Part shown: one piece after another, positions 3,572 to 23,402 of the stretch | How the letters are laid out: each line of letters starts with the position of its first letter | Numbering within the stretch: the stretch's first letter is position 1 | Assembly: GCF_014698755.1 (NCBI RefSeq) | Contig: NZ_JACJTO010000024.1 | Span: 1-64,000 of the forward strand | Source: Aphanizomenon flos-aquae FACHB-1287 | GTDB taxonomy: Bacteria > Cyanobacteriota > Cyanobacteriia > Cyanobacteriales > Nostocaceae | DNA: 64,000 nt | Direction of reading: 5' to 3' | The notes under the pieces: generated by a model | What the model was told of the DNA's origin: nothing | Seen by the model: the letters and a program-made list of their open reading frames with translations, nothing else | Database searches by the model: none | Translations under genes and position numbers: made by a program

Positions 3572-5431
3572 TTACCGATTTTTCAGGGAGGGAAAATTTT
3601 TACCACCTAGTTCAATTTGTCCGGTTAGGCAACCGTTTTTGAGCCTATTTACTAAATATTCTAAATCTTTAGCAATAAAGTTTGTCCCATGATCTGGTTC
3701 TATTAAGCTAATTAAGTTGACATCATTTATGATTTGATTACCTAAATCAGCAATTCCTAGAAAATTGAAAACTCCTGATTCATAAGTTCCACAAGGTACG
3801 GAGGGATTATTCATGCCAACGCAGTATTCATTTTCTTGAAACCAATGAAAATCAGGATAGCCATGAAAATGAACAATGGGTGCGCCATTGGCAATTATTT
3901 CGGGTGTGTATAAGGCGGTAGCGAGGCTAATAGCTAACATGACATAGATATCATAGGAAGGTTTGATATCTGTTTTGTTTGAGCTACTTCCTAATGGTAA
4001 TTGCAGATGTAATTTGTCTTGTAAACCAATACGCAGAATATCAGAATCAATATTTAAATTGGTTTTGTTTGCACCAGAACGGGAACTAACTAACCAAATG
4101 TCAGGGATTTGTTTAAATCTATTTTCTGCATTAATATTCAGTTTGATATAACGTCTACTTTGTTGATTTTGCCGAAGTTCATAACTACTAAATCCTGCGA
4201 CAGGTAATAAATTTTCCCATTCATCAATGGTAATTTCTGGTTTACCTACATAATGAGGAGGTTCGATATAAGCGACAAAACCATAAGATACTCCTGTTCT
4301 ACCATTAACAATGACATCAACTATATCTCGATGGGATTTTCTTTGAATAACTTCATCTAATTTAAATCCATTTGGAAATAAACCTGTTGATTCTAGATCT
4401 TGCCCTAATTTAATTAATTTATTGGCATAATTTGACAGATGAGGATTATATTTTCCTAGTTCAAAACGACTAATCAATAGTGGAGTAATTGGGACAAATA
4501 CTTTAGGTATAAATGATTTTAAGGCAAAGTCTTCAATTTCATTATGAAGAAACTTAGAATCAGATAGATTCATATTCAGAATAGAAAATTCTTCGTTAGA
4601 TACACCAATGACAATTTCTGAGAAGGTTTTAACTAGTGTATTTATGCCGATACGAATTTTTTCTGTATAGGGTGTAAGTGGACTAACAAATTGATTATCT
4701 ATGTTAGTCAGAGTTACTACTTGTGTATTAGTAGGATCTTCAACATATTTAGCGGCATGATCTTCAGCCCAGCTACTCAATTTAGCAATTTGAATAACGG
4801 ACATTTGTTGTTTTTCTTTTAGCCAATTATAAGATAATTTATACCAATTTTCAGCGATAATTATGCCTAATTTTCTTAACCATGAATTTGGTCTTTCTAC
4901 ATCTACAATAGCATCAATATCTGCTCTGACACTTTGGATTTTTAAAGATTTATGCCAGTTTAAAATGGGAATTTTAATGGTATGTTTTAATTCTGTTGTC
5001 GCTTCTTTCCAAGGAATTACTGTGACACCATGCTTTTGAAGATAGAAGATTAATTGTTGCCTAAATCTAACAATGACTTGATTATAATAATTATCTGGTA
5101 AAGGTCTAAAGCTAATTTTTAAGTTTTCAGCCATGAACTTAGGATTAATAATTGGTGGTTCATATCCTGTGGGTAATTCTCCAGAAAAGCCACCAATTAA
5201 TTTACCAATAGTTTGTAAACTAATGCCTTGAATTAAAGGTTCTTGGGCATAGTTATTAGTAACATTCATTTCCTGGATTAATGCTAAAATATCTTCTTTA
5301 TATGTGGCTATTTCTACTTGGATTTCTGGGGTAATTACTCCTTTGGGGGAACGAATATTCAGTTTGCTATTTTCTGACCAAAATAATACACCTTGTTGAG
5401 TGAGTTTTGCTAAAATTTCTGCTGCATTCAT
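3572..5431 (-). CDS. unrecognised PKS-cluster protein with TubC-like N-terminal docking domain
   Basis: This is the last gene of the PKS run, 619 residues, with a strong ribosome site (AGGAG, eight bases before the ATG) that fixes the start. Residues 1-55 (AEILAKLTQQGVLFWSENSKLNIRSPKG, then a helix ending DILALIQ) look like the TubC N-terminal docking domain, which holds NRPS/PKS partners together. The rest (~60-619) matches no family I know. It is soluble, with no clear membrane segment. It carries a histidine-rich motif HFHGYPDFHW (H521, H523, H529), a nearby CGTYESG stretch and a late EPDHGTNF motif that could bind metal or form an active site. Its position implies a role in tailoring, acceptor supply or release of the polyketide. 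That role is inferred from context only. Confidence 0.75.
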   Translation of the reverse strand: MNAAEILAKLTQQGVLFWSENSKLNIRSPKGVITPEIQVEIATYKEDILALIQEMNVTNNYAQEPLIQGISLQTIGKLIGGFSGELPTGYEPPIINPKFMAENLKISFRPLPDNYYNQVIVRFRQQLIFYLQKHGVTVIPWKEATTELKHTIKIPILNWHKSLKIQSVRADIDAIVDVERPNSWLRKLGIIIAENWYKLSYNWLKEKQQMSVIQIAKLSSWAEDHAAKYVEDPTNTQVVTLTNIDNQFVSPLTPYTEKIRIGINTLVKTFSEIVIGVSNEEFSILNMNLSDSKFLHNEIEDFALKSFIPKVFVPITPLLISRFELGKYNPHLSNYANKLIKLGQDLESTGLFPNGFKLDEVIQRKSHRDIVDVIVNGRTGVSYGFVAYIEPPHYVGKPEITIDEWENLLPVAGFSSYELRQNQQSRRYIKLNINAENRFKQIPDIWLVSSRSGANKTNLNIDSDILRIGLQDKLHLQLPLGSSSNKTDIKPSYDIYVMLAISLATALYTPEIIANGAPIVHFHGYPDFHWFQENEYCVGMNNPSVPCGTYESGVFNFLGIADLGNQIINDVNLISLIEPDHGTNFIAKDLEYLVNRLKNGCLTGQIELGGKNFPSLKNR

Positions 5432-5471
5432 GACAAAATCTCCTGTGTTTAAAAATAAGAACTTAGGAAAG

Positions 5472-5518
5472 AGGACACCTAGCTAAATTAGGGTTGTCCC
5501 AATCTGGCAAAGTGTCCT
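5472..5518. other. inverted repeat in the ACP/619-residue gene spacer
   Basis: AGGACAC (5472-5478) pairs with GTGTCCT (5512-5518) across 33 bases. It lies in the 141-bp gap between the ACP gene and the docking-domain gene. It could reduce read-through or stabilise mRNA ends, but it has no T-run and may mean nothing. Confidence 0.3.
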
Positions 5519-5572
5519 AATAATCAAGGAGGAAAAACTGGATTGTCAGTAATTAAACAGAATTTGTAGAGC

Positions 5573-5878
5573 TTATATCTGGATAATTTCTGACTGAGAA
5601 TTTTCTAATTCTTCAGATAGTCTGAGAGAAAGTTCTTCAATGGTGGGATAATACCAAAGGTGCATAAGTGATAATTTAAATCCCAAGAACTTTTCGGCTT
5701 TCCTAGCGATAATTATGGTTTGTGCTGAGTCTAAACCGTAACTATCGAGGGGTTTACGAATATTTATTTCTTCTGGATTAACTCCCAATAAGGAGGAAAT
5801 TTCTGAGACTAACCAAGCTTGAATTTTAGTAGTGTTATCTTGGTTATCAGGTTGATAATTAGAAAGATGATTATTCAT
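5573..5878 (-). CDS. free-standing acyl carrier protein
   Basis: This 101-residue phosphopantetheine-binding protein carries acyl chains as thioesters. A disordered, Asn/Gln-rich N-terminus (~1-18) precedes a four-helix carrier domain. The domain has the attachment motif SYGLDSAQT with serine 51, and LPTIEEL-type ends (YPTIEELSLRLSEEL). The GLDS-A form is typical of PKS/NRPS type carriers rather than of fatty-acid AcpP (DSLD). Its ATG directly follows the stop of the acyltransferase gene (TAAATG), so the two are translationally linked and likely work together. It may receive the finished chain from the PKS, or carry the acceptor or starter group. Confidence 0.9.
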   Translation of the reverse strand: MNNHLSNYQPDNQDNTTKIQAWLVSEISSLLGVNPEEINIRKPLDSYGLDSAQTIIIARKAEKFLGFKLSLMHLWYYPTIEELSLRLSEELENSQSEIIQI

Positions 5879-7219
5879 TTATGTTACCCCAGGTATTAAG
5901 CAATTAGGCGAAAATTTCATAATGTAATTGATACAATTATCTACGATTTTTTCCATGGTTTCTCGATGAAGTGAAGGTTGAGAAAATACAAAATTTAGGG
6001 TCATTTTTTCCTGAAAAGTAGCAGCATGAACAATAAACATTCCTGCGTATAAAGCATGAGAACCAACAAAACTAATTTCTTCTAGTTCTAATTGACCATA
6101 ACTATGAGGAATATTAATTTTACCAACATTAGAAATGGAAACTGTAGCGGATACTTGATTAGGAAATAACAAGGAGAAATTTATTAGTTGTTTAGCTATA
6201 AGTATCATTTGAAAAATTTCTCCTTGGTTAATTTTTTTATTAAGAGTTTGTTTAACTTTCCGCGCTAATTCCCAAAAACATATATTATTAGTAATTCTAT
6301 AAAATCCCATCAAAGATGCTGCTAAAACTGTCATATTTTCTTGACTAATTTCTGGTTGCAAATGTCTTCTTAAATCAAGATATGATAAACAACTAACTCG
6401 AATATTATCTTCATGGCTTTTAGTCAATTGTTTGGAGACTGTTAACATTAGTGCCGCACATAAAGCACTTTGTACTGTAGTATTTTCTTGTCGGCATTGC
6501 TGAATAAACTGCTGTGTTGATTCTTGATTAAGTTGTCTATGAATGATTTCGCAATGACGCTGAGAAATAGGAACATATTTTTCTACTCTTAAGGTTTTTA
6601 GTTGATTCCAGTATTTTTGAAAAGCGATATTTAATAATAAATAAATTCTACCTATCTTTCCTTTAAAACTATTTGTCCAAGTTGGTAATAGTTTTTCAAT
6701 GGGTGGAAGTGCTGCTAAGGTAGTGGCTACTGGAATAGATTTACCTTCAGTAATTCTTTGACAATAGGTTAAAATTTCTGAATGTAGTTTGATGCTTGAT
6801 AAACCGTCGGTAATAGCATGATGTGTAGTTGTGATCAGATAATTGATATTCCGCTGATTCAATATTTTTACAAGTACAACTCTTAGCAGATATTTACTAC
6901 TATCAATTAATTGATTCATTTCTGCATTGACGACTGCTTCCCATTCCTGACTTTCTCCAATATTAACAATTTGCAAAGGAAGTTTTCCTGTATCTATAGA
7001 CTGAAAATAGTAGGAATTTTTAGAATTAATAATGTGAGAATTAAGGGCAGGATGACGATATTGCAGAATATCTAAAGATTGCCTGAGAACTGTTTCTTGA
7101 AGATTTCCCTGAATACGGCTAATAGTAACTAAATTCCATGTTTTAGCTCGTTGATTCAGAATTTCCATTGTTTCTTCTAGCTGTCCTAATTTTCTATTTA
7201 TAGCCATATTTATTACCAT
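5879..7219 (-). CDS. condensation/PapA-like acyltransferase
   Basis: The protein (446 residues) belongs to the CoA-dependent acyltransferase / NRPS condensation superfamily. It has the catalytic HHxxxDG motif as HHAITDG (H133, H134, D138), near the expected place. An N-terminal half with paired short strands precedes the motif, and a C-terminal half contains FVFSQPSLHRETMEKIVDNCI. Stand-alone members such as mycobacterial PapA proteins move a polyketide acyl chain from a carrier protein onto an alcohol, making an ester. No thioesterase or thioester reductase is seen in this cluster, so it is a good candidate for chain release. It ends exactly where the ACP gene starts. Met1 or Met5 could be the start; neither has a strong ribosome site. 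Confidence 0.85.
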   Translation of the reverse strand: MVINMAINRKLGQLEETMEILNQRAKTWNLVTISRIQGNLQETVLRQSLDILQYRHPALNSHIINSKNSYYFQSIDTGKLPLQIVNIGESQEWEAVVNAEMNQLIDSSKYLLRVVLVKILNQRNINYLITTTHHAITDGLSSIKLHSEILTYCQRITEGKSIPVATTLAALPPIEKLLPTWTNSFKGKIGRIYLLLNIAFQKYWNQLKTLRVEKYVPISQRHCEIIHRQLNQESTQQFIQQCRQENTTVQSALCAALMLTVSKQLTKSHEDNIRVSCLSYLDLRRHLQPEISQENMTVLAASLMGFYRITNNICFWELARKVKQTLNKKINQGEIFQMILIAKQLINFSLLFPNQVSATVSISNVGKINIPHSYGQLELEEISFVGSHALYAGMFIVHAATFQEKMTLNFVFSQPSLHRETMEKIVDNCINYIMKFSPNCLIPGVT

Positions 7220-7291
7220 TTGCTAAATAAGAATTATTAAAATAGTTGGTAGTGAGGGATAAATCCCTCATTTACGATACTAAGGTGCTAA

Positions 7292-9016
7292 CTATAAACT
7301 TGGTTGTTTATTTAAGTTAGATACTGGATGATATTGACTAAATTCCTCTGGCATTTGTAAACCTTGGATTTTTAAATTTTGAACCCGATATAAATAAGCT
7401 GCACCTGTCATAATTTGATCGGCTATATCAACTACTCGGCGATTATTAATATCTGCCAAATAAGAGCCACGTACCCAATTATTAAAACTGCCCATTGCTG
7501 GTCCACACCAAATTTGATAATCAATTTCTCGACCTTTTTCTCCTGTGTTAGACCACCGAGAAGACAATCCTAAATACCAACGAAATATTAATGCCATTTT
7601 TATTTTAGGATTGTTAGTTGCTTTGCTTAATTTTTCTGGGTTGCGTTGGGATAAATAAGTAGATGTTTCTTGCCAAATTTCAGAAATTGTTTTTCGCAGA
7701 ATTTGTTTTTCTAATTTTTCTATTTCATCTGGAGGAATTTCTGCAATTGAATTATAATTTCTGTATAATTCCCATAGTTTTTGAGCGCGGAGAGGAAAAA
7801 GAGTTCCTCTTTTAAGAACTTGTAACTTTACTCCCATTTCAAACATATCAGCCGCTGGTGCCATCATTACATCAGTCATTTCTGCTTCAGATAGGAGCTT
7901 TTTTGTATATTCAGAAGTCCCAGCTTCAATGCAGGATTGATTAATAGAACCAGTGACAATATAAGCCGCACCCATCATGAAGGATGCTAGTGCTGATTGC
8001 GGTGTAGAAATTCCTCCAGCAACACCGATTCTTACAGGTTTTTCATAATTATATTTGCGTTGAATTTCATCTCTTAATTCTAAGATATAAGGTAATAAAC
8101 AAACCAAGGGACGATTATCTGTATGTCCTCCTGAATCTGCTTCTATGGTAATATCATCAGCCATAGGAATTTTTGCCGCAAGATTAGCTTGCAATTCGCT
8201 AATTAATCCTTGTTCAACTAATTGGGTCAGAATTTTTGTAGGTGCAGGTTGGAGGAATTTAGTGGCAATTTCTCGACGGGAAACTTTAGCGATAATTTTA
8301 TTGTTGATTTCAATTTGATTGGCTGAATTTAAACTTAATCCAGCAGCCCGATAGTAGACTATATTATCACTCAAATCTAAGAATGCAGAGGCTTCAATTA
8401 TTCTGACTTGATGCTGTAAATACAAATTAATTAAACGACGTTCGATAGCAGGTTCACTAGGACTATGAAGTAAGTTAAATGCATAGGATTTGTTATGTAA
8501 AGCTTGTTGAATTTTATGAATTGCTGATTCCACACGGGCAGGTAATAAACCTCCTGCACCAAAGGAACTTAAAATATTAGCTTTTCCTAGGGCAATTACC
8601 ATTTCTTCAGATGCAATACCCTGAGCCATTGCCCCAGTCATATATGCATATTTTGTGCCATAAAACTCTAGAAAATTTGGATCGCCTAATTGATGAAATT
8701 CGATAGCAGGAACAGTTAAAAGCATTTCTAACTTGTTACTTTTACCATTGGCACTATATGATAAACTACCTTTGTTGCTAATACCAATTTGTCCTTCTTT
8801 ATTCAGAATATAGCAAGGAAAATTTAAATTCATCAGTTTATTTTTAATATTTTCTGCATCAAAAGAGACGGTATTTAAATCACCTTGCCATGCTTGATAA
8901 TTATTATTCATTGTAGGGGAAAACTTGAGTTTTTGTTGATGTTTATTTGGCGTAATTTCTGAATTAAACACTTTATTTAACCTCTGATAATTGACTAGAG
9001 TATTGTAGGAAGGCAA
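7292..9016 (-). CDS. PfaD-family trans-acting enoyl reductase
   Basis: This FMN-dependent TIM-barrel protein of the PfaD / 2-nitropropane dioxygenase type works in trans on PUFA-synthase-like and trans-AT PKSs. It reduces the enoyl intermediate. Family features are TGAMAQGIASEEMVIALGKANILSSFGAGGL-type phosphate-binding loops (~125-160), EADSGGHTDNRPL (~290), and GVAGGISTPQSALASFMMGAAYIVTGS (~335-360). The tail resembles PfaD: IWCGPAMGSFNNWVRGSYL, near 500. The open frame starts with TTG at 9016. The first ATG is residue 36 (8911), and the true start is undecided. It lies between the two KS-bearing genes and the acyltransferase on one strand and supplies the reductive step missing from the main PKS. 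Confidence 0.93.
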   Translation of the reverse strand: MPSYNTLVNYQRLNKVFNSEITPNKHQQKLKFSPTMNNNYQAWQGDLNTVSFDAENIKNKLMNLNFPCYILNKEGQIGISNKGSLSYSANGKSNKLEMLLTVPAIEFHQLGDPNFLEFYGTKYAYMTGAMAQGIASEEMVIALGKANILSSFGAGGLLPARVESAIHKIQQALHNKSYAFNLLHSPSEPAIERRLINLYLQHQVRIIEASAFLDLSDNIVYYRAAGLSLNSANQIEINNKIIAKVSRREIATKFLQPAPTKILTQLVEQGLISELQANLAAKIPMADDITIEADSGGHTDNRPLVCLLPYILELRDEIQRKYNYEKPVRIGVAGGISTPQSALASFMMGAAYIVTGSINQSCIEAGTSEYTKKLLSEAEMTDVMMAPAADMFEMGVKLQVLKRGTLFPLRAQKLWELYRNYNSIAEIPPDEIEKLEKQILRKTISEIWQETSTYLSQRNPEKLSKATNNPKIKMALIFRWYLGLSSRWSNTGEKGREIDYQIWCGPAMGSFNNWVRGSYLADINNRRVVDIADQIMTGAAYLYRVQNLKIQGLQMPEEFSQYHPVSNLNKQPSL

Positions 9017-9059
9017 GATGCCTATCCCATAATTAATTCAAAGAAATTTCTGTTTATTT

Positions 9060-11744
9060 TTACTTTTCTATTTGCATGATCATTTTTTTGTAAAATTCTA
9101 ACTGCTGCTGAAGAAAGAGGCTAAGTTGTTGAAGTGATCTTTGTCGAGATTGTAATAAAAAGCTATGTGCTTTAGTCATACGGGCATTATTATTATTTAA
9201 ACTTTGATAATTAGGGATAGACTTTATTTTCTGTTCATAATTTAGTAAAGAATTATTTTGTAAAAATGACTGATTTTTGCAAGCAATATCTTGATTAATC
9301 TTGGTATTAGACGAAGAATATAAAGGTGATAGATCTAACTCAATTCGATGACTAAATAGCTTCGCCAATGCTTTGATAATAGAAGTATGATCATCTACAC
9401 CTCTTTTATTTAGAGACACTGTTAGATGTTCTTTATCTTTGAGAATTTCACTAATCCAACGACTACAATTACTACCAACACCAACTTCAATAAAGATTCT
9501 GATATTATCATTATAGACATGATTAACTAAGCGAGGAAAATCAAGTTGTTGACAAAGGGCTTTAGCGATATTTTTGCCAATTAAATGACTATCAATATTA
9601 ATGGGTAAATATTCGGCGGCAGAATAGAAAATTGTAGCTGAATTTGCTTGAGTGGGCAATGTATTAACTTTCACTAATTCATCATATTCAGATTGCATTG
9701 GTTCACAATGAATTACATGATTAATTGATGTGGAAAAAGCATCACATTTTAAGGTTTCAATGACTCTTTGACAAGCTTGGGTTTCACCAGCAATAACTAC
9801 TTCTTCGGGTGTATTAATTAAAGGCATATAAACCCAACTTTCATTTTTTAGAACTTCTTGAACTTTGGAAGGTGAGCATATTAAAATGTAATTACTCCAA
9901 AATTCTTCACTTTTACCTCCATGAATTAAAGGTAATCCCCAGTGGTGACGAACTGCATTTTTATGTCCAGATAACTGAGTTTTAAATAAAGGTGATGAGT
10001 TCAAATAATCGCTGGTACTTTTAAAACTAGTCCAGATGCCTTGGGCTAACATCATACTTGTTTCACCAAGGCTATAGCCAAAAGCATAGGGTGATTGAAT
10101 TTGAAAATAGTTTTTAAGAATTGCTGTCATTAATCCCGCAATACCAACTTCTGATTCTAGCATGGAAACGGGATCATCTATTAATGTTTGTTCTATGTTT
10201 TCTAGTTGTCTTCTTGATAATTTGTTGATGCTTCGAGGATAGAGAATTTTTTCAATGTTGTCGACTCGATTATAAACATTTTTAATGATTACATCATTAT
10301 GTAGTTGAGGAAAAAGACGAAAAATATTTCTTCCTAGTCCTATATAAGAAGTAAAAGAACCAGGATAAACAAAGGCAATATGACCTTTTTTACCTTGGGG
10401 ATTAACTGTAAAATAACTACCAAGAGGAGTTTGCCAATCTTTGCCAGTAGCGAAAGCAATTTTTACACCCTGAATTGCCCTTTCAATTTCTCGTTTTAAT
10501 TCCTCTGGATGTCGTGCAAGAATTGCTAAAGCGTAGGTTGATTTTTGATATTGCTGATATTTTTGGAAATAATCACTAGCAAGTTGTGATAGGGAGGAAA
10601 TATCTGTAATATTTTGTTGGAGTGCGGTAATTTGTGTTAATAAAGAAGAACTATTATCAGCGGCAATGGCAAATAAATAATAAGGCATTTCTGCTAAATA
10701 TTGACTATTACGTTCTATTTGGCTAATTTCTTCCGACAAAATTAAATGTCCATAAATATCATCTTCCTCTATCATATTTACCGCAGCAACTCTTTTAGTT
10801 GCACCAGGTTCTAAAAACCAAGGTTTTGATTCTACTGCTACATAAAAGGGACTTCCGTACCAAATCTCTGAGTGTTTAGGATTAGACCATTGGGGAACAC
10901 CGGGAATATAACGATGATATAAACAAAGTGCGGTTTTGATGAGGCTAAATATACCAGCGGTGGCTTCTGTATTGCCAATATTTGCTTTAACACTACCCAA
11001 GGCACAACTAAGATTTCTTTTCCCTGTCTGATAAGCCGATATTAAACCTTGGATTTCTGCTTTATCTGCATTGGGATTTCCACTAGCAACAACTTCTAAA
11101 TAACCAATATCTGAGGCTTTAATATTTGCTATTTGAAAAGCTTGTTGACAAGTTTGGGTAAGAGTTTCTGGGTGATTTAGAGAATGTTTTACAACACTCA
11201 AACTATCAATAATTGCATAAATACAATTATTTTGTTGCTTGGCTGTTTCATGCAGTTGTAATACTACTGCGGCTGCACCTGCTGTTTTAATTACATCCTT
11301 AGCATTCTCATCATAACTGAAAGTATATAGACCTGTATTAAGTTCTATTGAGTAATTTTTATCTATCCCCACAATTAAAACAGCTTCAACTTGCTGGGTA
11401 GTTAATAATTTTTGACTTATATCTAAAGCTGATAAAAGTGACTTTTCTTCAGTAAAAAATGCTAACTCAGCAGGAATATAATTAGCTAATTTTGCAGAAT
11501 TTTCCGTGGGAGAAATGATGATTAATGCTATTTTTGTGCTTGGTTGAATTTTAGCATCTACCAGTGCCGAATTGATCACTTCTCGACTTAATGGAGTTTG
11601 CTGATAATCTGAAGATGTAACTGAATTTTGTTTACCTTCATAAATCAGGCGTTCAAATTGATTTAATGTTGGTGAATTACTCACAAAACAATCCATACCA
11701 ACAATTGCTAACTTTTGATTTTGTGCGGTTAATTTCATGATCAT
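9060..11744 (-). CDS. degenerate ketosynthase plus acyltransferase subunit (HglC/chain-length-factor-like)
   Basis: The protein (894 residues) has a KS-like half (~10-345) and an AT-like half (~450-830). The KS fold is recognisable from VKANIGNTEATAGIFSLIKTAL, but catalytic residues are lost. No cysteine stands where the KS active site should be (near AFFTEEKSLLSAL, ~95-107). The HGTGT histidine is replaced (EVVASGNPNADKAE, ~217-230), and the GHT histidine has become Asn (GNT, 257-259). This half is therefore probably a chain-length-factor-type partner. The AT half keeps a nucleophile in GYSLGE (S558). A C-terminal helix (~855-890, HSFLLQSRQRSLQQLSLFLQ) may dock to the PKS. A GGAGA seven bases before Met3 (11738) makes that the likelier start. 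Confidence 0.85.
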   Translation of the reverse strand: MIMKLTAQNQKLAIVGMDCFVSNSPTLNQFERLIYEGKQNSVTSSDYQQTPLSREVINSALVDAKIQPSTKIALIIISPTENSAKLANYIPAELAFFTEEKSLLSALDISQKLLTTQQVEAVLIVGIDKNYSIELNTGLYTFSYDENAKDVIKTAGAAAVVLQLHETAKQQNNCIYAIIDSLSVVKHSLNHPETLTQTCQQAFQIANIKASDIGYLEVVASGNPNADKAEIQGLISAYQTGKRNLSCALGSVKANIGNTEATAGIFSLIKTALCLYHRYIPGVPQWSNPKHSEIWYGSPFYVAVESKPWFLEPGATKRVAAVNMIEEDDIYGHLILSEEISQIERNSQYLAEMPYYLFAIAADNSSSLLTQITALQQNITDISSLSQLASDYFQKYQQYQKSTYALAILARHPEELKREIERAIQGVKIAFATGKDWQTPLGSYFTVNPQGKKGHIAFVYPGSFTSYIGLGRNIFRLFPQLHNDVIIKNVYNRVDNIEKILYPRSINKLSRRQLENIEQTLIDDPVSMLESEVGIAGLMTAILKNYFQIQSPYAFGYSLGETSMMLAQGIWTSFKSTSDYLNSSPLFKTQLSGHKNAVRHHWGLPLIHGGKSEEFWSNYILICSPSKVQEVLKNESWVYMPLINTPEEVVIAGETQACQRVIETLKCDAFSTSINHVIHCEPMQSEYDELVKVNTLPTQANSATIFYSAAEYLPINIDSHLIGKNIAKALCQQLDFPRLVNHVYNDNIRIFIEVGVGSNCSRWISEILKDKEHLTVSLNKRGVDDHTSIIKALAKLFSHRIELDLSPLYSSSNTKINQDIACKNQSFLQNNSLLNYEQKIKSIPNYQSLNNNNARMTKAHSFLLQSRQRSLQQLSLFLQQQLEFYKKMIMQIEK

Positions 11745-11887
11745 TCTCCATTTTTTGGAACTGAACCTAATGATGTTTCTTGCAATTTCTCTTAGAGATT
11801 ATGCAGGGTAAGTAAAAAGGAGCAAAGGCGCAAAGTTTTAGAATTTTAATTTTCCCTGCGCCTCTGCGTCTCTGGGTGAAAAAATAT
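11745..11887. other. spacer with common cyanobacterial hairpin repeat
   Basis: This 143-bp gap lies inside the PKS gene run. It holds AAAGGCGCAAAG followed ~30 bases later by the CTGCGCCTCTGCGTCTCTGG phrase. That phrase turns up often between genes in filamentous cyanobacteria, and a related form is at 42334-42363. It may fold as a hairpin. No promoter was recognised. Confidence 0.45.
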
Positions 11888-14800: not shown

Positions 14801-17800
14801 GGGGCTGGGTTTAGGTAAATCAGGATATATTTCTAATAAACCTCCTAAAATTTCTACTCGTTTAATAGAATCAATTCCTAAATCTGCTTCCATATCCATT
14901 GACAGTTCTAACATTTCTACAGGGTAGCCTGTTTTCTCACTGACAACGTTTAGCAGAGTTTTACTAAGGGTAGTTTTATCTATGTTAATTGGAATTTTGG
15001 GAATTATGGTAATGGTCTTTTGATCATTTTCTAATTCCTCTGGAACTTGGGGAGAGAAAATAGGTTCTTTAACTAAAAGATTAGCAGATTCAGGCTGATT
15101 TACGTAACTAATACCTCTATTTTCTGAAGTCAGTAAATGAAAATGTTGCTGGAGAAGTTGAAAATAATCATGGCTATATTCATGTTGATATTTAAGATAC
15201 TGTTCATGAATGCGAAGAGTATCGCCTTGATGATCATGAAACCGCATCATATTACGTTCAGAACTAGAAATTACTAATTGCTGATTTTGAGATTGATCTT
15301 CTGTAAGTTCACTATTTCCTAATAATGAATACTGTTGCTGCATTAATTGAGAAAATGTCTTTGTGTATTCTGTTTGATTGTGCAAAGATTGTTCATGAAC
15401 ATTAATAATATCCCGGTGTTGCTGACTAAATTCTGTGATGAAATTTTCTAAGCTGTGAATAACTTTTTCATAATTCTGCGGCTGAATTTTGATTTCTTCT
15501 AATTTACTATTAAGTGAATTAGTCGGTGTGTTGTCACCCTGTAATTCTTGTTTTCCATTAAATGAAGTTTGCGGTTTGTCGTTACCCTGTAATTCTTTAT
15601 TCCCATTAAATGAAGTTGGCGGTTTGTTGTTAACTGTTGGTTGGGGAGATATCACCTCCACATGATGACCATTTTCTAAAGCTTTTGCAAAGGCTTTTTG
15701 AGTTTTTTCGGTAATATTGGTACTATTTAACCGGACATTCAAAACTTTTTGTTGGGGAATTTCGGGAATTTTAGTGGCGACTTGATAGGGGTCTAAATTT
15801 TCCAAAGATAACCCAGCTACTTGTAATTGAATTATAGCTTCTCGAAGTGTGCAATCACTATTTTTAGTGTGATTTGCATTTAGGGCTATAGCTATGTGGG
15901 GTTTATCAGCTAAAATCTCTTTTACCAAATTGGTAAGGATATTTTTAGGACCAAATTCCACAAAACAATAACCACCAGCAGCATAGATATTTTCAATCTC
16001 CTGCTGAAATAATACCTGATTTAATAATTGTTCTTTGAGAATCTTCTGGATATCGTGAGGTTCTTGAGGATAACATCCACCTGTCACATTAGTATAAACA
16101 GGAATTTTTGCTTCATTGAAATTTACTTTTTCAACAGCTTGAGCAAAAGGTTTTTGAGCATGAGATACTAAGGGTGTATGAAATGCTGCGGAAACTCCTA
16201 ATAAAAAAGTAGAAAATCCTTGATTTTTGAGAATATCTTGAACTTGACTAATTTCCTTTTTCTTCCCAGCTAATACTATTTGATGCTGAGAATTTCTATT
16301 AGCAACTGCTACCAAAGGAAAGTTTTTAATTACTTCTGTTATTTGGTGAATATTCCCTTTAACGGCTAACATTCCCCCTGCATCAAAATCTGAATTTGCA
16401 GGTGTAGCCATGGCTTGTCCTCTAGCTTTTACTAAGAACAAATAATCCTCTTCACTTAATACACCCGCAGCCCACAAAGCCGTTAATTCACCAAAACTAT
16501 GACCAGCGACAAAATCGGGTTTAAAACCAGCTTGTTGCAATATTTTATATAAGCCCGCACTAAATACACCAATTGCCGGTTGTGCATATTCAGTTTTCTG
16601 CAATGTTGCTAACTGAATTTGCTTTTGTGCTTGATCAAAAATCGGCTGGGGGAATACTACGGTTGATAAGGGTTGTAACCCGTCTTCACACAATAGGCTA
16701 TCCATGTGCGTATATGTTTGGCGCAAACAGGGAAAATTTATTACTAACTCTCGTCCCATTTCTAAGTATTGTGAACCTTGTCCAGAAAACAAAGCCACAA
16801 CTTTACCCCTTGCGTCTATCCCTGCTTGACGGTAGTAAATCCCTTGAGGATGTTCCCATGATTCGGCTTCAGGCTTCTGTTTCAGCCCTTTAATCACAAT
16901 TTCCAGCAATTCCCCAGCTTGGGCTAAATCATTCGCTACAAAGCCAACTCTGGCATAATTAACGGGAATTTTGCCAATTTGAGACTCAGTAACTAATTGT
17001 TGATAGTGTTGTTCTTTACCATCAATCTGTAATTGTTGCTGGATTTGTTGACAACGAGATAACAACTCTGAAGCCGTAGGAGCAAATAGCAGCAACGATT
17101 GTGGAGTATGGTGTAAACGGTACGGGTGATGATGTTCATGTTCATATTCTTCCAAAACAACGTGATAATTTGTACCACCAAAGCCAAAGGCACTGACTCC
17201 CGCCCTTCTCGGTTGAGTGGGATGACTTATCCAGGGTCTAGTCTCCGTATTTAAGTAAAATGGTGAGTTCTCAATATTCAGTTTAGGATGGGGTTTACTG
17301 ACATTGATTGTCGGCGGTAAGACTTTGTGATGTAACGCTAAAGCCGCTTTAATTAGACTAGCAGCACCAGCAGCCGCTTTAGTGTGTCCAATTTGGGATT
17401 TAACAGTTCCCAAGGCAATATGCTGTTTTTTTGGGTTATTTTCGCCAAAAACGGTGGTAATAGACGTAAATTCTGTAGGATCTCCTACCATCGTTCCTGT
17501 ACCATGGGCTTCAATCAAACCTATACTGGCAGGTGATATTCCTGCTTCATTATATGCACGATGTAAAGCATTTATTTGTCCTTCGGGACGAGGTGCATAG
17601 ATACTTTTATACTTACCGTCGCTAGAACTGCCAACACCTTTGATGACTGCATAAATGCGATCGCCATCTCGTTGAGCGTCTTCTAGTCGCTTGAGTACCA
17701 GCATTCCCACGCCTTCACCTAACATCATCCCGTCAGCATCAGCATCAAAGGGTTTCACCTTATCCCCTGGAGAAACCGCCGGGGTTTTACTGAAGCACAT

Positions 17801-18670
17801 ATAGGCGAAAATTGAGTTATCCGTATCCACACCACCAGTTATCATCATGTCGGCGCGATGTTCCACTAACTCGCTAATAGCCATTCTCAGTGCGCCTAAA
17901 GAACTTGCACAAGCTGCATCTACTACGCAATTCATCCCGCCTAAATCTAGGCGATTAGCGATACGTCCAGAAATCACATTAGCTAACATTCCGGGGAAGG
18001 CGTTTTCTTCCCATTGCACATATCCACTTTTGATTTTTTCAATAATTTTTTGGCTATCTTCATCTGATAAACCACTATTTTTCAAAACTTTTTTCCAAAG
18101 AGGATCTTGCAATCTTGCACCCAAAGGAACAGCCAATTGTCTACCAATTGCTACTCCTAATACTACCCCTGTTCGTTCGTGATTAAATTGGCGAGATACA
18201 CCATAACCAGCATCTTCTATCGCCTCTTTTGCTACTACTAAACCCAGTAATTGAGAAATATCTGTCACCTCCAAAATATTAGGAGGTAAGCCAAATTTCA
18301 TGGGATTAAAATCAATATCTGGTAAAAAACCTCCTCGTTTACAATAGGTTTTATCTGGTGCTTTAGGATCGGGATCATAATAATCATCTATATGCCAACG
18401 GGAAGCAGGAACATCAGTAATACAATCCACTTTCTGAATAATATTTTCCCAGTATTCCTGTAAATTCTTCGCCTGAGGAAAGATAGAAGCCATACCAATA
18501 ATTGCTACATTAGTTGTTCGCAGTTTGGCATTAATTTCATTTTTCATCTTTGTGGTATCGGGCATATTTTTTTTCACCGTTATCATCTTGAGTACGGACT
18601 TTTCGCAGTTACTAATTTCAGATTGTAACCGTGCAAAATCAACTTCAAATTTAGAAGCAGCCATGATCAT
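11888..18670 (-). CDS. PfaA/HglE-type iterative polyketide synthase (KS-AT-ACP-ACP-KR-DH)
   Basis: The protein (2260 residues) is the core synthase. A ketosynthase spans ~50-510 with a full triad: Cys254 in DAACASS, His389 in EAHGTGT, His429 in GHTKAAAG. An acyltransferase follows at ~620-925 (GHSFGE, Ser725; AAFHTP). A linker (~1000-1210) holds a repeated TSFNGxxELQG phrase and two copies of a helical unit around HEQxL. Two almost identical acyl carrier domains follow (LGIDSIKR; Ser1268 and Ser1391). A ketoreductase (~1690-1950) has VSGGAKGITAQ, LFSSVVG and YAIANE. A C-terminal dehydratase-type domain (~1985-2250) has DHVIAGRPVLPAT. PfaA-like tandem ACPs and a PfaD partner suggest an iterative, highly reduced product. 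The gene begins ATGATCATG, so Met1 or Met3 may be used. Confidence 0.95.
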   Translation of the reverse strand: MIMAASKFEVDFARLQSEISNCEKSVLKMITVKKNMPDTTKMKNEINAKLRTTNVAIIGMASIFPQAKNLQEYWENIIQKVDCITDVPASRWHIDDYYDPDPKAPDKTYCKRGGFLPDIDFNPMKFGLPPNILEVTDISQLLGLVVAKEAIEDAGYGVSRQFNHERTGVVLGVAIGRQLAVPLGARLQDPLWKKVLKNSGLSDEDSQKIIEKIKSGYVQWEENAFPGMLANVISGRIANRLDLGGMNCVVDAACASSLGALRMAISELVEHRADMMITGGVDTDNSIFAYMCFSKTPAVSPGDKVKPFDADADGMMLGEGVGMLVLKRLEDAQRDGDRIYAVIKGVGSSSDGKYKSIYAPRPEGQINALHRAYNEAGISPASIGLIEAHGTGTMVGDPTEFTSITTVFGENNPKKQHIALGTVKSQIGHTKAAAGAASLIKAALALHHKVLPPTINVSKPHPKLNIENSPFYLNTETRPWISHPTQPRRAGVSAFGFGGTNYHVVLEEYEHEHHHPYRLHHTPQSLLLFAPTASELLSRCQQIQQQLQIDGKEQHYQQLVTESQIGKIPVNYARVGFVANDLAQAGELLEIVIKGLKQKPEAESWEHPQGIYYRQAGIDARGKVVALFSGQGSQYLEMGRELVINFPCLRQTYTHMDSLLCEDGLQPLSTVVFPQPIFDQAQKQIQLATLQKTEYAQPAIGVFSAGLYKILQQAGFKPDFVAGHSFGELTALWAAGVLSEEDYLFLVKARGQAMATPANSDFDAGGMLAVKGNIHQITEVIKNFPLVAVANRNSQHQIVLAGKKKEISQVQDILKNQGFSTFLLGVSAAFHTPLVSHAQKPFAQAVEKVNFNEAKIPVYTNVTGGCYPQEPHDIQKILKEQLLNQVLFQQEIENIYAAGGYCFVEFGPKNILTNLVKEILADKPHIAIALNANHTKNSDCTLREAIIQLQVAGLSLENLDPYQVATKIPEIPQQKVLNVRLNSTNITEKTQKAFAKALENGHHVEVISPQPTVNNKPPTSFNGNKELQGNDKPQTSFNGKQELQGDNTPTNSLNSKLEEIKIQPQNYEKVIHSLENFITEFSQQHRDIINVHEQSLHNQTEYTKTFSQLMQQQYSLLGNSELTEDQSQNQQLVISSSERNMMRFHDHQGDTLRIHEQYLKYQHEYSHDYFQLLQQHFHLLTSENRGISYVNQPESANLLVKEPIFSPQVPEELENDQKTITIIPKIPINIDKTTLSKTLLNVVSEKTGYPVEMLELSMDMEADLGIDSIKRVEILGGLLEIYPDLPKPSPEELGQLRTLEQIAEYMQTLVPDILNQQVEISTAIATTEVLIEVPKPELIISPPEIEEQKPVIEIPENLSHILLTIVSEKTGYPVEMLELSMDMEADLGIDSIKRVEILGGLLEIYPDLPKPNPEELGQLRTLGEIANYMQQQAQGVTKLLTEEILEISTTKFQPNIRRSIAKLQQLPTPDSLEFSPSENHIALITDDGSDITNKLATNLIAKGWKTVVLSFPGIDSTVNEDINKVVLTDWNEETLEQHLKQIADNYGTVAAFIHLQPATPLNVDKSILLHVFLIAKYLKEPLNKASKFGRSCFINVAHLDGEFGLAETHNFSAIAGGLFGLIKTINQEWENVFCRSLDLNPDLDPETSVKHILAEIYDPNLLIQEVGYSRKGRVNLIADFAPLPTNNSQRKITKNQVFLVSGGAKGITAQCVIKIAQEYQCKFIILGRSSAEPEPVWSENCKNEAELKQRILENFQAQGEKPTPIMVQKKYQVISSQREIQNTLKAIEKAGGKAEYLSVDITDTVLLESKLADVIERFGVITGIIHGAGNLADKRIEKKSIQDFENVYAAKVKGLENLLRCVPASQLQYLVLFSSVVGFYGNVGQSDYAIANEILNKSAHLIKHNCPNCHVMAINWGPWESGMVSPELKKAFAERGIEVIPVETGTQILIDELNTANQDAVQLVIGSPLIYVPTTLSNELKTYRIKRQLTLAENPFLQDHVIAGRPVLPATCGLLWMTNACEQIYPGFTAFSSTNFKVLKGIVFDESLINEYVLEIQELAKHHNQEIEFAAKISSKTSDGKIRYHFSTNLILKREIPTPPSYGSLNFNQNEELLKTNQELYQVNDCSLFHGITFQGVKSVLNISHNQITIECYLTEPTAQQKGQFTFQTFNPYISDVQIHSLWIWTQYFHQVGCLPSEIKNFEQFAKVPFGETFYVTCEVQSKTESSVITNVITYNHQGQIYNRMIGAKGTILPRPIAKA

Positions 18671-19536: not shown

Positions 19537-19923
19537 TTGCATTATCTGGCTTCTGCAATATTGGAATTACAAAAACTACAAGGAATTGCTGGCATGAGAC
19601 TATCTGAATTAGATCCACTCATCCCGCTGAATGAGTTACGAGAAGACCTCCTTAAATTACCAAAAGGTTATTCATTTTATGAAGATGAATTAGTAGATTT
19701 TCTATCACGGAGAAGATGGCCTGAAAGCAATCGCCGCATTGATAGAACAACATTCTGGCGGTGGCGTAATGATAACGCTATTGAACATCAAAAAATATTT
19801 AGTCGCTTAGACCTTCTCAAACTTTGCCAAATTTGTGATCATTACCGAGTAGACGGAACCCGCAGCGAATACTTGGCAATTATGCGGAAGAAGAAAGAGA
19901 AAGAGGTTGTACTAAATAAATAA
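19537..19923 (+). CDS. small unknown protein beside the PKS divergent promoter
   Basis: The frame encodes up to 128 residues from a TTG codon. The first ATG is residue 20 (19594), giving 109 residues. I do not recognise the family. It is soluble and has a basic, tryptophan-rich middle (SRRRWPESNRRIDRTTFWRWRN) that could be a DNA-binding helix pair. A helical C-terminus (RLDLLKLCQICDHYR, then a Lys/Glu-rich tail) follows. It is the first gene after the divergent spacer, in the same direction as the exporter genes, so it is a candidate local regulator. That role is inferred from position and charge only. It could also be an exporter or PKS accessory protein. Confidence 0.65.
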   Translation: MHYLASAILELQKLQGIAGMRLSELDPLIPLNELREDLLKLPKGYSFYEDELVDFLSRRRWPESNRRIDRTTFWRWRNDNAIEHQKIFSRLDLLKLCQICDHYRVDGTRSEYLAIMRKKKEKEVVLNK

Positions 19924-20243
19924 TTTTTTGATATTGGTAATCGGTAATAGTCATTAACTAATTGCCAATTACCTATCAAAATTTTAGTATTTGAGCATTT
20001 TATGTAATTTCCTGTTAATTAACCTCAGTAAATAATTTTTGTCATCAGAAATTTAAGTGTAGGTTTGAATAATCAAGTTTTCAAAACTAACAAAATTTTT
20101 GATAAATAGTATTTTTTTGGATATTGGATATTTATTATATCAGAGATAAGGTTATCAAGAGATGCTATCAAGTGTTATGGCTTTTCTGTCTCGTATTTAG
20201 AGTCAGTTATATTGTCATATTTCCTAATTTAAAAGACAAAATT

Positions 20244-21446
20244 ATGGTACACAAAGAAAAGCACTCATTAATAAAACCTATAAGTTTATTGCCGATAATG
20301 TTAGCAAGTGCTGGGGTTATAGCCACTAGTATACTATCTATTGATAGCCTTTTACATTTTTGGAAACCTTCTAAATCAGCCTCTCAAATATCTCCTATTC
20401 TCCCCAGTTTAGCACCTACAATTAATGCTGTTGCGGCTTTAGGACGTTTAGAACCTCAAGGAGAGGTGATTCGTCTTTCTGCACCTAATTCACAAACAGG
20501 AATCAGAGTTAATCAACTTTTGGTGAAAAAAGGAGACAAAATTCGTCAAGGACAAATAGTAGCAGTTCTTGATAGTTATATCCCTAATCTTGCAGTTTTA
20601 GAAAAAGCAAAACGACAAGTAGAAGTGAGTCAAGCGAACCTTGAGCAAGTAAAAGCAGGTGCGAAAGAAGGTGATATTTCGGCTCAAAAAGCCACAATTT
20701 CTCGTTTAGAAGCTGAATTACGAGGGTCAATTTCTACTCAAAAAGCTACAATTTCTCGTTTAGAAGCTGAACTAAAAAATTCAGAAACCGAAAATACACG
20801 ATATCAGAAATTATATCAAGATGGTGCTATTTCTGCTTCTGATACAGATACTAAAAAATTACGCAGGGATACTGTTCAAGAACAACTTAATGAAGCTAAT
20901 GCTAATCTAAAACGAACTGTAGAAACTTTAGAAAAACAGTTAAGTGAGTCTCAAGCTAGACTTACTAGTATTGCAGAAATTCGTCCTACAGATTTGCAAC
21001 TAGCACAAGCAAATGTCAAAAGTGCCATAGCATCTGTTCAACAAGCTCAAGCAGAACTAAATTTAAGTTCTATCCTTGCACCTATTAATGGTCAAGTGCT
21101 AAAAATTAATACTTGGCCAGGAGAAATAATTGGCAATAAGGGCATATTAGAATTAGGACAAACTCAACAAATGTATGTAGTTGCAGAAGTCTATGAAACT
21201 GATATTAAAAAAGTTCGTTTAGGTCAATCAGTAACTATCACTGGTGAAGCTTTTACAGGAACATTAAAAGGGACAGTTACAGATATTGGTTTACAAGTTG
21301 GTAGACAAAACATCTTCAATACTAATCCTGGTTCAGACACAGATAACAAAATAGTTAATGTAAAAATTCGCATTGATAACCCCGCAGATAATCAACGAGT
21401 TTCAAGCTTAACAAATTTACAGGTACAGGTACTTATTAAGATATAA
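20244..21446 (+). CDS. devB: DevB-type membrane fusion protein (HlyD family)
   Basis: This periplasmic adaptor of a DevBCA ABC exporter joins the inner-membrane permease to a TolC-like outer-membrane channel. In heterocyst-formers DevBCA exports glycolipids. From the ATG at 20244 the protein has 400 residues. The longer frame (from TTG at 20124) adds 40 residues of doubtful value. One N-terminal membrane helix (SLLPIMLASAGVIATSILSI) is followed by a lipoyl half (INQLLVKKGDKIRQGQIVAVLDS-type). A long coiled coil with a duplicated SxQKATISRLEAEL phrase comes next, then the second lipoyl half (ILAPINGQVLKINTWPGEIIG) and a beta-barrel domain. It lies 75 bp before devC. Confidence 0.92.
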   Translation: MVHKEKHSLIKPISLLPIMLASAGVIATSILSIDSLLHFWKPSKSASQISPILPSLAPTINAVAALGRLEPQGEVIRLSAPNSQTGIRVNQLLVKKGDKIRQGQIVAVLDSYIPNLAVLEKAKRQVEVSQANLEQVKAGAKEGDISAQKATISRLEAELRGSISTQKATISRLEAELKNSETENTRYQKLYQDGAISASDTDTKKLRRDTVQEQLNEANANLKRTVETLEKQLSESQARLTSIAEIRPTDLQLAQANVKSAIASVQQAQAELNLSSILAPINGQVLKINTWPGEIIGNKGILELGQTQQMYVVAEVYETDIKKVRLGQSVTITGEAFTGTLKGTVTDIGLQVGRQNIFNTNPGSDTDNKIVNVKIRIDNPADNQRVSSLTNLQVQVLIKI

Positions 21447-21521
21447 AACTGAACTATAATTTCGATGATTAATAAGATGTATTTAAAAAATTTAGTGCTT
21501 ATATAACCACAAGGAAAAAAC

Positions 21522-22697
21522 ATGATTTTAAATATACCTTTGCCTTGGCTACAATTGGTAAAACAAAAAGTACGCTTTTTTGTAGCATTAGCTGGTATTG
21601 CTTTTATTTCTGTTTTAATGTTTATGCAAATTGGGTTTCAAGATGCTCTTTATGCTAGTGCTACTCAAGTCCATAAACACCTGCGAGGTGATTTGTTTTT
21701 AATTAGCTCCCAATACAAATCTTTAACTTCTACTCAAAGCTTTCCTCGCAGTCGTTTACATCAAATATTAGGTTTTAACGGCACAGAATCTGTTGAACCT
21801 TTATATGTCCAATTTGCTAAACTCAAAAATCCCATTAATGGCCGCAAATATCCTATTTACATTCTAGGATTTGATCCGGTAAAATCTATCTTTAAATTAC
21901 CAGAAGTAGATCAAAATTTTCAATTACTAAAAATTCCTGATCAAGTATTTTTTGACCGCGCAGCCCGGCCAGAATTTGGACCAATTGCTGAATATTTTCA
22001 AAAAAATCAACCTATAGGTATGGAAATATTTAGTTATTTGGGAACTATTGGTTATAAGGTTAAAGTTAGTGGTTTATTTACTCTTGGACCTTCCTTTGGT
22101 GTGGATGGTAATTTAATAGTTAGTTCTTCTACTTTTTTTAATATCTTTCCAGAACATAGATCAAATCAAATAGATATAGGCTTAATTCATCTAAAACCTA
22201 ATGTTAACCCCCAAGCAATTCTCACAACTTTATCTAATAGTTTACCAAAGGATGTCACGGTAATGACACGCCAAGAATTTATTGACTTTGAAAAAAGCTA
22301 TTGGACATTAAGAACACCAATTGGATTTGTATTTAATTTAATGGTAATGATGGGTTTTGTTGTCGGTGTAATTGTCGTTTATCAAATCCTTTATAGTAAT
22401 ATATCAACTCATATTGTCCAATTTGCTACACTCAAAGCTATGGGATTTAGGAATAAATATCTTTTAAATGTCGTATTTCAACAAGCTGTAATTTTAGCTA
22501 TTTTGGGTTACATTCCCGGTTTTGCTATCTCTTTAGGACTATATGATATTGCTAAAAATGCAACTAAATTACCAATTGTTATGGATCTAAATAAGGGATT
22601 ATTAGTATTTATTTCTGTGATTGTTATGTGCTTAACTTCTGGTTTCTTTTCTACCAATAAACTACGTAAGGTAGATCCAGCGGAAATATTTAATTAA
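21522..22697 (+). CDS. devC: DevC-type ABC exporter permease
   Basis: This inner-membrane permease of the DevBCA exporter has 391 residues, a normal length for DevC. It shows the MacB/DevC plan: one N-terminal helix (~18-38), a large periplasmic domain (~45-265), then three C-terminal helices (~270-295, ~322-345 and ~362-380). The FATLKAMGFRNKYLLNVVFQQA segment between the last helices is the usual coupling region. A GGAAAA-type ribosome site precedes the ATG. It is followed after three bases by devA, so the two are co-translated. Its substrate cannot be read from sequence; the neighbouring PKS suggests a glycolipid-like molecule. Confidence 0.92.
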   Translation: MILNIPLPWLQLVKQKVRFFVALAGIAFISVLMFMQIGFQDALYASATQVHKHLRGDLFLISSQYKSLTSTQSFPRSRLHQILGFNGTESVEPLYVQFAKLKNPINGRKYPIYILGFDPVKSIFKLPEVDQNFQLLKIPDQVFFDRAARPEFGPIAEYFQKNQPIGMEIFSYLGTIGYKVKVSGLFTLGPSFGVDGNLIVSSSTFFNIFPEHRSNQIDIGLIHLKPNVNPQAILTTLSNSLPKDVTVMTRQEFIDFEKSYWTLRTPIGFVFNLMVMMGFVVGVIVVYQILYSNISTHIVQFATLKAMGFRNKYLLNVVFQQAVILAILGYIPGFAISLGLYDIAKNATKLPIVMDLNKGLLVFISVIVMCLTSGFFSTNKLRKVDPAEIFN

Positions 22698-22700
22698 CTC

Positions 22701-23402
22701 ATGATCCAATATTTACCTTCTCCTAATATTTTAGAAATCACAAATCTTAATCATTACTTTGGTCATAGTAAATTACTTACTCAGACTTTATTTGAGATTA
22801 ATTTGACTATCAAACCTGGAGAAATTGTGATTATGACTGGACCATCTGGTTCAGGAAAAACTACTTTATTAACATTAATTGGAGGTTTACGTTCTGTACA
22901 AGAGGGAAGTTTACAATTTAATGGACAGGAATTATTCGGCGCTAGTCGGGAAGAATTAGTACAGGTTCGTCGTCAAATTGGCTATATTTTTCAAGCGCAT
23001 AATTTATTAGATTTCCTCACAGCTATGCAAAATGTTCAAATGTCTTTGGAATTACAAAATGATATTTCTTCATGGGAATCTTATATCCAATCAGAAACAA
23101 TGCTCAATGCTGTAAAATTAGGAGATAGAATTAATTATTATCCTTCTGATCTTTCTGGAGGACAAAAACAACGGGTAGCTATTGCTCGCGCTCTAGTGAG
23201 TCATCCTAAGTTAGTATTAGCTGATGAACCTACGGCTGCTTTAGATAGTAAATCAGGACGAGATGTGGTTAATTTAATGCAGCAATTAGCAAAAGAACAA
23301 AATTGTACTATTTTAATTGTCACCCACGATAACCGGATTTTAGATATTGCTGACAGAATCATTACTATGGAAGATGGTCGTTTAATGCAGCAACTCACAT
23401 AG
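22701..23402 (+). CDS. devA: DevA-type ABC exporter ATPase
   Basis: This ATPase of the DevBCA exporter has 233 residues. It shows Walker A GPSGSGKTT (~47-55), a Q-loop (GYIFQAHNLLDFLTAMQNV), the signature LSGGQKQRVAIARAL, Walker B LVLADEPTAALD, and a switch histidine in IVTHD. These make it a complete, probably active subunit. Its ATG lies three bases after the devC stop. It is the last gene of the rightward arm of the island. A hairpin without a T-run follows at 23407-23431. Confidence 0.95.
   Translation: MIQYLPSPNILEITNLNHYFGHSKLLTQTLFEINLTIKPGEIVIMTGPSGSGKTTLLTLIGGLRSVQEGSLQFNGQELFGASREELVQVRRQIGYIFQAHNLLDFLTAMQNVQMSLELQNDISSWESYIQSETMLNAVKLGDRINYYPSDLSGGQKQRVAIARALVSHPKLVLADEPTAALDSKSGRDVVNLMQQLAKEQNCTILIVTHDNRILDIADRIITMEDGRLMQQLT

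Follow-up and report, generated by a model that had tools for sequence, protein, structure and literature searches.

The stretch of 64,000 nt from Aphanizomenon flos-aquae FACHB-1287 (contig NZ_JACJTO010000024.1, positions 1 to 64,000; "the window" throughout) carries a compact lipid synthase and exporter island, and its release end, a free acyl carrier protein (ACP) next to a protein we call Dock, is the main subject here. Six genes lie on the minus strand. Dock (P0002, 619 aa; 3572..5431) is neighbored by the free ACP of 101 aa (5573..5878; PP-binding 48.4 bits, cut-off 20.8), which ends in the tail ENSQSEIIQI, and by a PapA-like acyltransferase of 446 aa (5879..7219; PapA_C 77.6 bits, cut-off 30; Condensation 49.3). 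These are joined by a PfaD/HglA-type enoyl reductase of 574 aa, listed with a TTG start (7292..9016; pfaD_fam 659.4 bits, cut-off 449.25), a degenerate, CLF-like ketosynthase (KS) fused to a PfaB-type acyltransferase (AT) in 894 aa (9060..11744; Ketoacyl-synt_C 74.2 bits; pfaB_fam 165.9, cut-off 144.3), and an HglE/PfaA-type polyketide synthase (PKS) of 2260 aa with KS, AT, two ACPs, ketoreductase (KR) and dehydratase (DH) in this order (11888..18670; omega_3_PfaA 2224.8 bits, cut-off 1010.1). On the plus strand, a small protein (19594..19923) is followed by a DevB/HgdB-type membrane-fusion protein (20124..21446; heterocyst_DevB 367 bits, cut-off 129), a DevC/HgdC-type permease (21522..22697; devC 446.3, cut-off 290.35) and a DevA-type ATPase (22701..23402; heterocyst_DevA 374.1, cut-off 295.8). 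Family names follow Pfam and NCBIfam profile scores relative to the cut-offs, and these scores, together with a check of the open reading frames (ORFs), agree with the initial annotation on the coordinates of all island ORFs and on the layout of six minus-strand genes with divergent genes.

The translation of HglE contains the active-site motifs of KS (DAACASS, HGTGT, GHTKAAAG) and AT (GHSFGE) and two GIDSIK ACP motifs. The KS part of the KS-AT protein is called degenerate because only the C-terminal ketosynthase family, Ketoacyl-synt_C, matches it in Pfam (residues 191-282). PapA has an intact acyltransferase motif HHxxxDG (HHAITDG) and scores too low for the curated NCBIfam models of PapA5 (76.6 bits against a cut-off of 396, and 53.4 against 716); 51 of 56 extracted relatives share the motif and five do not. 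PapA also occurs in tandem, in two or three copies (L057, L058, L062, L064, L078-L084), and some genomes place these after Dock and not before the ACP. No GTAN8TAC site of the NtcA type was found in the divergent region (18671-19593), which is a weak test; the whole window holds 13 such sites with 11.15 expected.

The same genome (4.35 Mb, 85 contigs) carries a second, full hgl set on another contig, C34, with HglB (NAD_binding_4 and PP-binding), a HetN-like short-chain dehydrogenase/reductase (SDR), glycosyltransferases, an epimerase, a DUF2141 protein, HglE, separate KR-DH and KS proteins, KS-AT, PfaD and genes for DevC and DevB. A Cas1 gene lies approximately 7 kb past its HetN-like gene (L097:19265-19963). 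Window and C34 proteins are 54-58% (HglE), 48-50% (KS-AT), 66% (PfaD), 61% (DevC) and 47% (DevB) identical, and the C34 permease is the closest to that of the window within the genome, with four others at 45-50%. The window proteins match C34 hgdC, hgdB, hglE, F, G, C and A in about five ORFs, if the letters F, G, C and A are assigned by domain content. In a PfaD tree, the window falls on the hgl-like side of a split supported at 97/93 (single gene, midpoint root). Among the ORFs from 399 to 29143 that were compared with Pfam, none encodes HglB, HgdA, a HetN-type SDR, or HglT or another glycosyltransferase, which supports the difference from the standard hgl locus that had been noticed from the letters.

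This gene content corresponds to the "hgl-like" islands described in PMC11804610 (PNAS 2025), in which five ORFs show homology to seven genes (hgdCB, hglEAFGCA); many heterocytous strains have them in addition to another island, and their products are perhaps other than heterocyst glycolipids (HG). The authors of that paper dispute that these islands function in heterocytes or akinetes. They found no HG tied to hgl-like islands, an akinete former lacks the island, and strains that lost heterocytes have it as their sole island. The island as a whole is therefore of a known kind and not new; a literature search for hgl-like islands in cyanobacteria gave this paper only. The main text of PMC11804610, as distinct from its supplementary information, nowhere uses the words "acyltransferase", "docking" or "aldolase". 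Hence, the question raised in the initial annotation, whether the cluster is already described, is answered with yes for the island kind, while we did not find its release end described.

Linkage of the two arms was counted on 62 loci fetched, with extensions, around Dock matches. A locus was included if the N-terminus of its HglE was more than 60% identical and at least 2.6 kb of upstream sequence was present, which left 44 loci, one per genome; 11 loci with a short upstream side (10 of these genomes being counted via an extension) and seven without such an HglE were excluded. Three of the 44 islands have or may have no Dock (G034, G016 and G001). In all 44 genomes, DevB and DevC lie divergently within 6.5 kb of the PKS arm. 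This two-arm arrangement is far beyond chance, and the first proposal of a lipid synthase of the PfaA/HglE type linked to an exporter is supported.

The small gene also lies between both arms in 41 of the 44 genomes, and it was found in 103 of the 192 genomes of the family. Its product is 80-98% identical in relatives, and the gene adjoins pgl whether an island is present or not; among 11 fetched stretches from other genomes in which no island is near, nine place it next to pgl. It is therefore a resident gene and not an island gene, as which it had originally been counted. In one genome (G067), the order is proC-sepF-yggS-pipX, approximately 0.9 kb, the small gene and pgl, so the island arms flank a resident gene. 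Translation probably starts at the ATG at 19594 (109 aa). Its sequence gives the impression of a DNA-binding protein; a role as island regulator was dropped, as the gene sits beside pgl without an island elsewhere.

Within the 192 family genomes, the window's included, 110 strong Dock matches (at least 739 bits) were found in 96 genomes and 112 PapA matches (at least 300 bits) in 94. PapA lies within 10 kb of 76 Dock genes (76 genomes), and the remaining 34 strong Dock matches have none. In a phylum-wide sample, Dock was found at 1e-20 in 26 of 292 genomes, all of the window's order. Gene contexts were followed for the best 80 of 143 relatives (the named loci), which include Symploca, Xenococcaceae, Gloeocapsopsis crepidinum LEGE 06123, Aliterella, Acaryochloris, Hydrococcus and Myxosarcina; some of these contigs are cut, and absences of other genes are to be read as lower bounds. 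An ACP adjoins Dock in every one of the 80. Where PapA is present, it is combined with PfaD and ACP (33 loci), with PfaD, ACP and SDR (12), with ACP (4) or with ACP and SDR (1). Loci with PfaD and without PapA contain ACP (6), HglB and ACP (4) or ACP and SDR (2), and those with neither contain ACP, SDR and GT28 (12), ACP and SDR (3) or ACP alone (3).

Many loci (L087, L091-L096, L177-L179, L182-L184, L186, L188, L189, L191, L193, L194) carry ACP-Dock-SDR with one to several glycosyltransferases resembling monogalactosyldiacylglycerol (MGDG) synthase; their PKS genes are not of the HglE type (about 30% identity), and they are perhaps an undescribed glycolipid family. Two loci that had been considered modular-PKS clusters, L088 (equal to L173) and L090, turned out to be ACP-Dock-SDR without HglE. 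In four others (L073, L074, L167, L175), ACP-Dock-PapA has a DevB/DevC pair (42-44%) and a TetR-type gene as neighbors, with no HglE nearby. Dock homologues (about 53%) were also seen on the large plasmids NZ_CP117772.1 (Nostoc sp. UHCC 0926) and NC_014533.1 (Gloeothece verrucosa PCC 7822), a possible route for moving the cassette.

The relation of ACP-Dock to HglB becomes visible in canonical-type hgl islands. HglB-type matches at 1e-60 are present in 189 of the 192 genomes. In G033, G035 and G100 (Cylindrospermum sp. NIES-4074), the hgl island, with glycosyltransferases, HgdA, HgdB/C, HglE, KR-DH, KS, KS-AT and PfaD, continues without a break into ACP-Dock-SDR at the place of HglB. The same order is found from HglE onward in G078, with its HglE cut by the contig end, and G036, and partially in G015. 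A stand-alone HglB was found in none of these six genomes, only regions of 35-49% identity inside ORFs of 1045-3077 aa, and G035 has no HglB-type match at 1e-30. Six further genomes have no strong intact HglB: in G175 it is split on a small contig, and G001, G024, G073, G143 and G177 miss it without a Dock-type hgl island being apparent.

In the PfaD tree (70 rows), 18 HglB islands and six ACP-Dock-SDR islands lie together on the hgl side, opposite the window. The NIES-4074 island (L086) groups with two HglB islands of the same genus (98/90), and the tree requires a minimum of two changes between the ACP-Dock-SDR and HglB labels. In the Dock tree, a single clade (99/98) unites the hgl-type Docks with two unlinked ACP-Dock-SDR clusters. 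This grouping suggests transfer of the cassette between islands. Reverse swaps occur at the window's locus type, where HglB replaces PapA-ACP-Dock in G034 and stands with PapA in G016 (both rows are long branches). Because hgl islands carry ACP-Dock-SDR at HglB's place and the PfaD tree forces repeated changes, ACP-Dock appears to be a module that can be exchanged for the thioester reductase HglB; in the window island, it pairs with PapA. In Nostoc sp. TH1S01 (G072; L173/L286), ACP-Dock-SDR adjoins a HetN-like SDR (76%), and a strong HglB lies elsewhere in the genome.

The free ACP of the window is 52% identical over 82 residues to the N-terminal ACP of C34 HglB, compared with 24% over 80 residues to the first ACP of HglE. 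An acidic-hydrophobic C-terminal tail (e.g., SESEIFEI) terminates all 92 distinct Dock-linked ACPs, whether free or ending a larger PKS, and none of 16 other ACPs of the same loci; as the pattern was written after the tails were seen, this count is descriptive. The counterpart is found at the N-terminus of Dock, where both the TubC_N profile (51.2 bits, cut-off 26) and the predicted fold indicate a beta-hairpin docking domain. The pairing of tail and docking domain is a sequence rule that suggests physical docking. Domains of this kind bind C-terminal tails in a characterized nonribosomal peptide synthetase (NRPS), according to excerpts of PMC6195595.

The earlier designation of Dock as a docking-domain protein holds for only about the first 56 of its 619 residues. 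Residues 66-325 resemble CoaB, the phosphopantothenoylcysteine synthetase, as a weak lead, and a profile search of this middle part against the PDB gave no match. The C-terminal part (approximately 328-612) adopts the fold of class II aldolases in the predicted model, and its best fold matches include FucA and RhuA, aldolases of the dihydroxyacetone phosphate (DHAP) type. The titles of the fold matches span a superfamily with epimerases, dehydratases (MtnB is an example), decarboxylases and oxygenases. H521, H523, H581 and D494 are invariant in Dock; the histidines form an HxH...H pattern, and together with the acidic residue they may correspond to the metal-binding residues of FucA, with the correspondence drawn via a non-significant hhalign path. 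Fold and motif order suggest an aldolase-like domain, which would probably be metal-dependent. As neither PF00596 nor a profile matches, we state that Dock has the fold and do not call it a member of the superfamily. An immunomodulatory protein, the best PDB profile match of the C-terminal part (E 0.017 and 0.019), was taken as chance and rejected as a relative.

Taken together, we consider an hgl-like lipid island with ACP-Dock off-loading in place of HglB the best overall explanation, in which our confidence is evenly balanced. By their family functions, HglE, the degenerate KS-AT and PfaD would iterate like a polyunsaturated fatty acid (PUFA) synthase to a long reduced acyl chain. The small ACP, in essence an HglB-type ACP without the reductase, would take over the chain, its tail would bind the beta-hairpin domain, and the aldolase-fold domain, working at the beta-carbon of the beta-hydroxy or beta-keto end of the acyl chain on the ACP, would free, or possibly finish, the chain. 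Where an SDR follows, the freed carbonyl would be reduced; in the window island, PapA would esterify the product, and the HgdB/HgdC/DevA-type pump would export it. The ACP-Dock pair is the constant unit; PapA, SDR and glycosyltransferases are exchangeable followers that would decide between ester, alcohol and glycolipid. The single most likely reaction is a retro-aldol cleavage of 3-hydroxyacyl-ACP to an aldehyde and acetyl-ACP, on the doubtful side though it is, and DHAP condensation and decarboxylation are further candidates. The initial annotation had proposed a lipid ester made by an ester-forming release step. An ester product is plausible with the intact HHxxxDG motif; however, since PapA is absent near 34 of 110 strong Dock matches and the ACP is beside Dock in all 80 named loci, PapA need not be the release step.

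Several observations weigh against off-loading by Dock in place of HglB. With regard to the enzyme, hhalign of the Dock C-terminus against the relatives' Aldolase_II members and against E. coli FucA, AraD and YgbL with three MtnB-like proteins reached probabilities of 0.35% and 0.6%, the C-terminal part of the window protein has no Pfam match up to E 10, and its PDB profile search yielded no aldolase. With regard to the exchange, the PfaD of three PapA islands (L068, L070, L072) groups beside the hgl clade, so there is no clean split and the islands recombine. One island of the window's locus type (G040, L289) places PapA, a complete HglB, ACP and Dock next to one another, possibly an intermediate of the swap. 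HglB and ACP-Dock also occur together in four named loci (L160, L163, L180, L185), among them that of LEGE 06123, and Dock is consequently not simply equal to HglB; this strain contains C24 1,3-diols and their glycosides according to the main text of PMC11804610. No SDR is linked to the window island, the best in its genome reaching 39%, and any aldehyde formed would thus have to be reduced by an enzyme encoded elsewhere. Finally, reductase domains in large ORFs of PKS/NRPS size could in principle serve the HglB-less islands.

If Dock were not the off-loader, an alcohol would receive the ACP-bound chain through PapA or another enzyme, and the part of Dock would only be to modify the bound chain, for example by epimerization, dehydration or decarboxylation, or to make the acceptor. 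The coexistence of HglB and Dock in some islands, the intact PapA motif of the window and the range of activities in the superfamily are consistent with this. However, the 34 strong Dock matches without PapA and the HglB-less hgl islands, which end in ACP-Dock-SDR only and have neither HglB nor PapA, argue against it, and we regard it as unlikely. Alternatively, Dock could release the chain with DHAP or another ketose: a triose phosphate enediolate would attack the ACP-bound acyl or beta-keto chain, and the lipid would leave with a three-carbon head of a polyol or butenolide-like type, to be reduced by an SDR and decorated by PapA or a glycosyltransferase. Excerpts of PMC7756379 provide a precedent, as an AfsA-like domain of the gladiostatin PKS off-loads 3-keto thioesters by DHAP condensation. 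The FucA and RhuA fold matches and the 12 named loci in which SDR and MGDG-synthase-like glycosyltransferases come after Dock fit as well; we consider this proposal rather improbable. A second hgl locus for a variant envelope glycolipid of heterocysts or akinetes, suggested by the shared core enzymes and exporter type and by hglE2 of Anabaena PCC 7120 being named in part of PMC4390870 among heterocyst-specific genes affected by sigE (its orthology to the window HglE is putative), is very improbable in view of the arguments of PMC11804610 given above, of two genomes that keep the compact island without HgdA and a strong HglB (G073, G177), of another that keeps it without HglB and a canonical-type HglE (G024) and, weakly, of the absent GTAN8TAC site; a heterocyst or akinete glycolipid was set aside as an unlikely product on the same grounds.

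Beyond off-loading in the window island, ACP-Dock could tentatively be seen as a new off-loading module for long-chain lipid synthases and modular PKSs, in which a probably metal-dependent aldolase-fold enzyme, recruited by the C-terminal ACP tail, would cleave or form a C-C bond (e.g., in a non-reductive retro-aldol release). The module would have repeatedly replaced HglB even in genuine HG islands, with branches to an ester through PapA, to an alcohol through an SDR and to a glycolipid through an SDR with an MGDG-synthase-like glycosyltransferase. We found no literature on a docked aldolase in such clusters in a search of mostly freely accessible journals with partly incomplete result lists. 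If true, a cassette swappable for HglB would explain other lipids from the same synthase, the assumption that HG synthesis always needs a thioester reductase would be corrected with Dock as a concrete candidate protein, and the strict pair of ACP tail and docking domain would offer a recruitment part for lipid and polyketide engineering.

For comparison with known systems, the genes all1649-all1643 with HglE2 of PCC 7120 may correspond to the window island, a lead that draws on one table of a FurA paper. Saito and Awai reportedly found in 2020 that HglE2 makes no HG. With the hgl-like islands of PMC11804610, the window island shares the compact layout as a second island beside a full hgl island, the hgdCB/hglEAFGCA homologues and the lack of HglB and glycosyltransferases; PapA, the free ACP, Dock and the resident small gene are unmentioned in its main text. 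The canonical hgl island (Anabaena PCC 7120 type, here C34) has homologous HglE, KS-AT, PfaD, DevC and DevB, whereas the window island has PapA-ACP-Dock and no HglB, separate HglD-type KS, HgdA-type epimerase or glycosyltransferases. The PfaA/PfaB/PfaD logic is common to PUFA synthases and hybrid PUFA-PKS-NRPS clusters (JACS Au 2026, PMC13291983, in excerpts), but the window island has no NRPS module and another release end. PapA5-type acyltransferases share PapA_C, Condensation and HHxxxDG with the window PapA, which remains below their cut-offs. The gladiostatin domain (PMC7756379, excerpts) is a precedent for C-C release with DHAP, yet it belongs to an unrelated family and lies within the PKS chain. 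The class II aldolase/epimerase superfamily (FucA, RhuA, AraD, YgbL) has the fold and the HxH...H and KPSxD order in common with the Dock C-terminus, which differs in having no sequence-family match, in its fusion to a docking domain and in its putative action on an ACP. Finally, the beta-hairpin docking domains of the TubC, AerJ and Kj12 NRPSs (PMC6195595, excerpts) share the N-terminal fold and the conserved C-terminal tail of the partner with Dock-ACP, whereas here the domain belongs to an aldolase-fold protein and its presumed partner is a small ACP.

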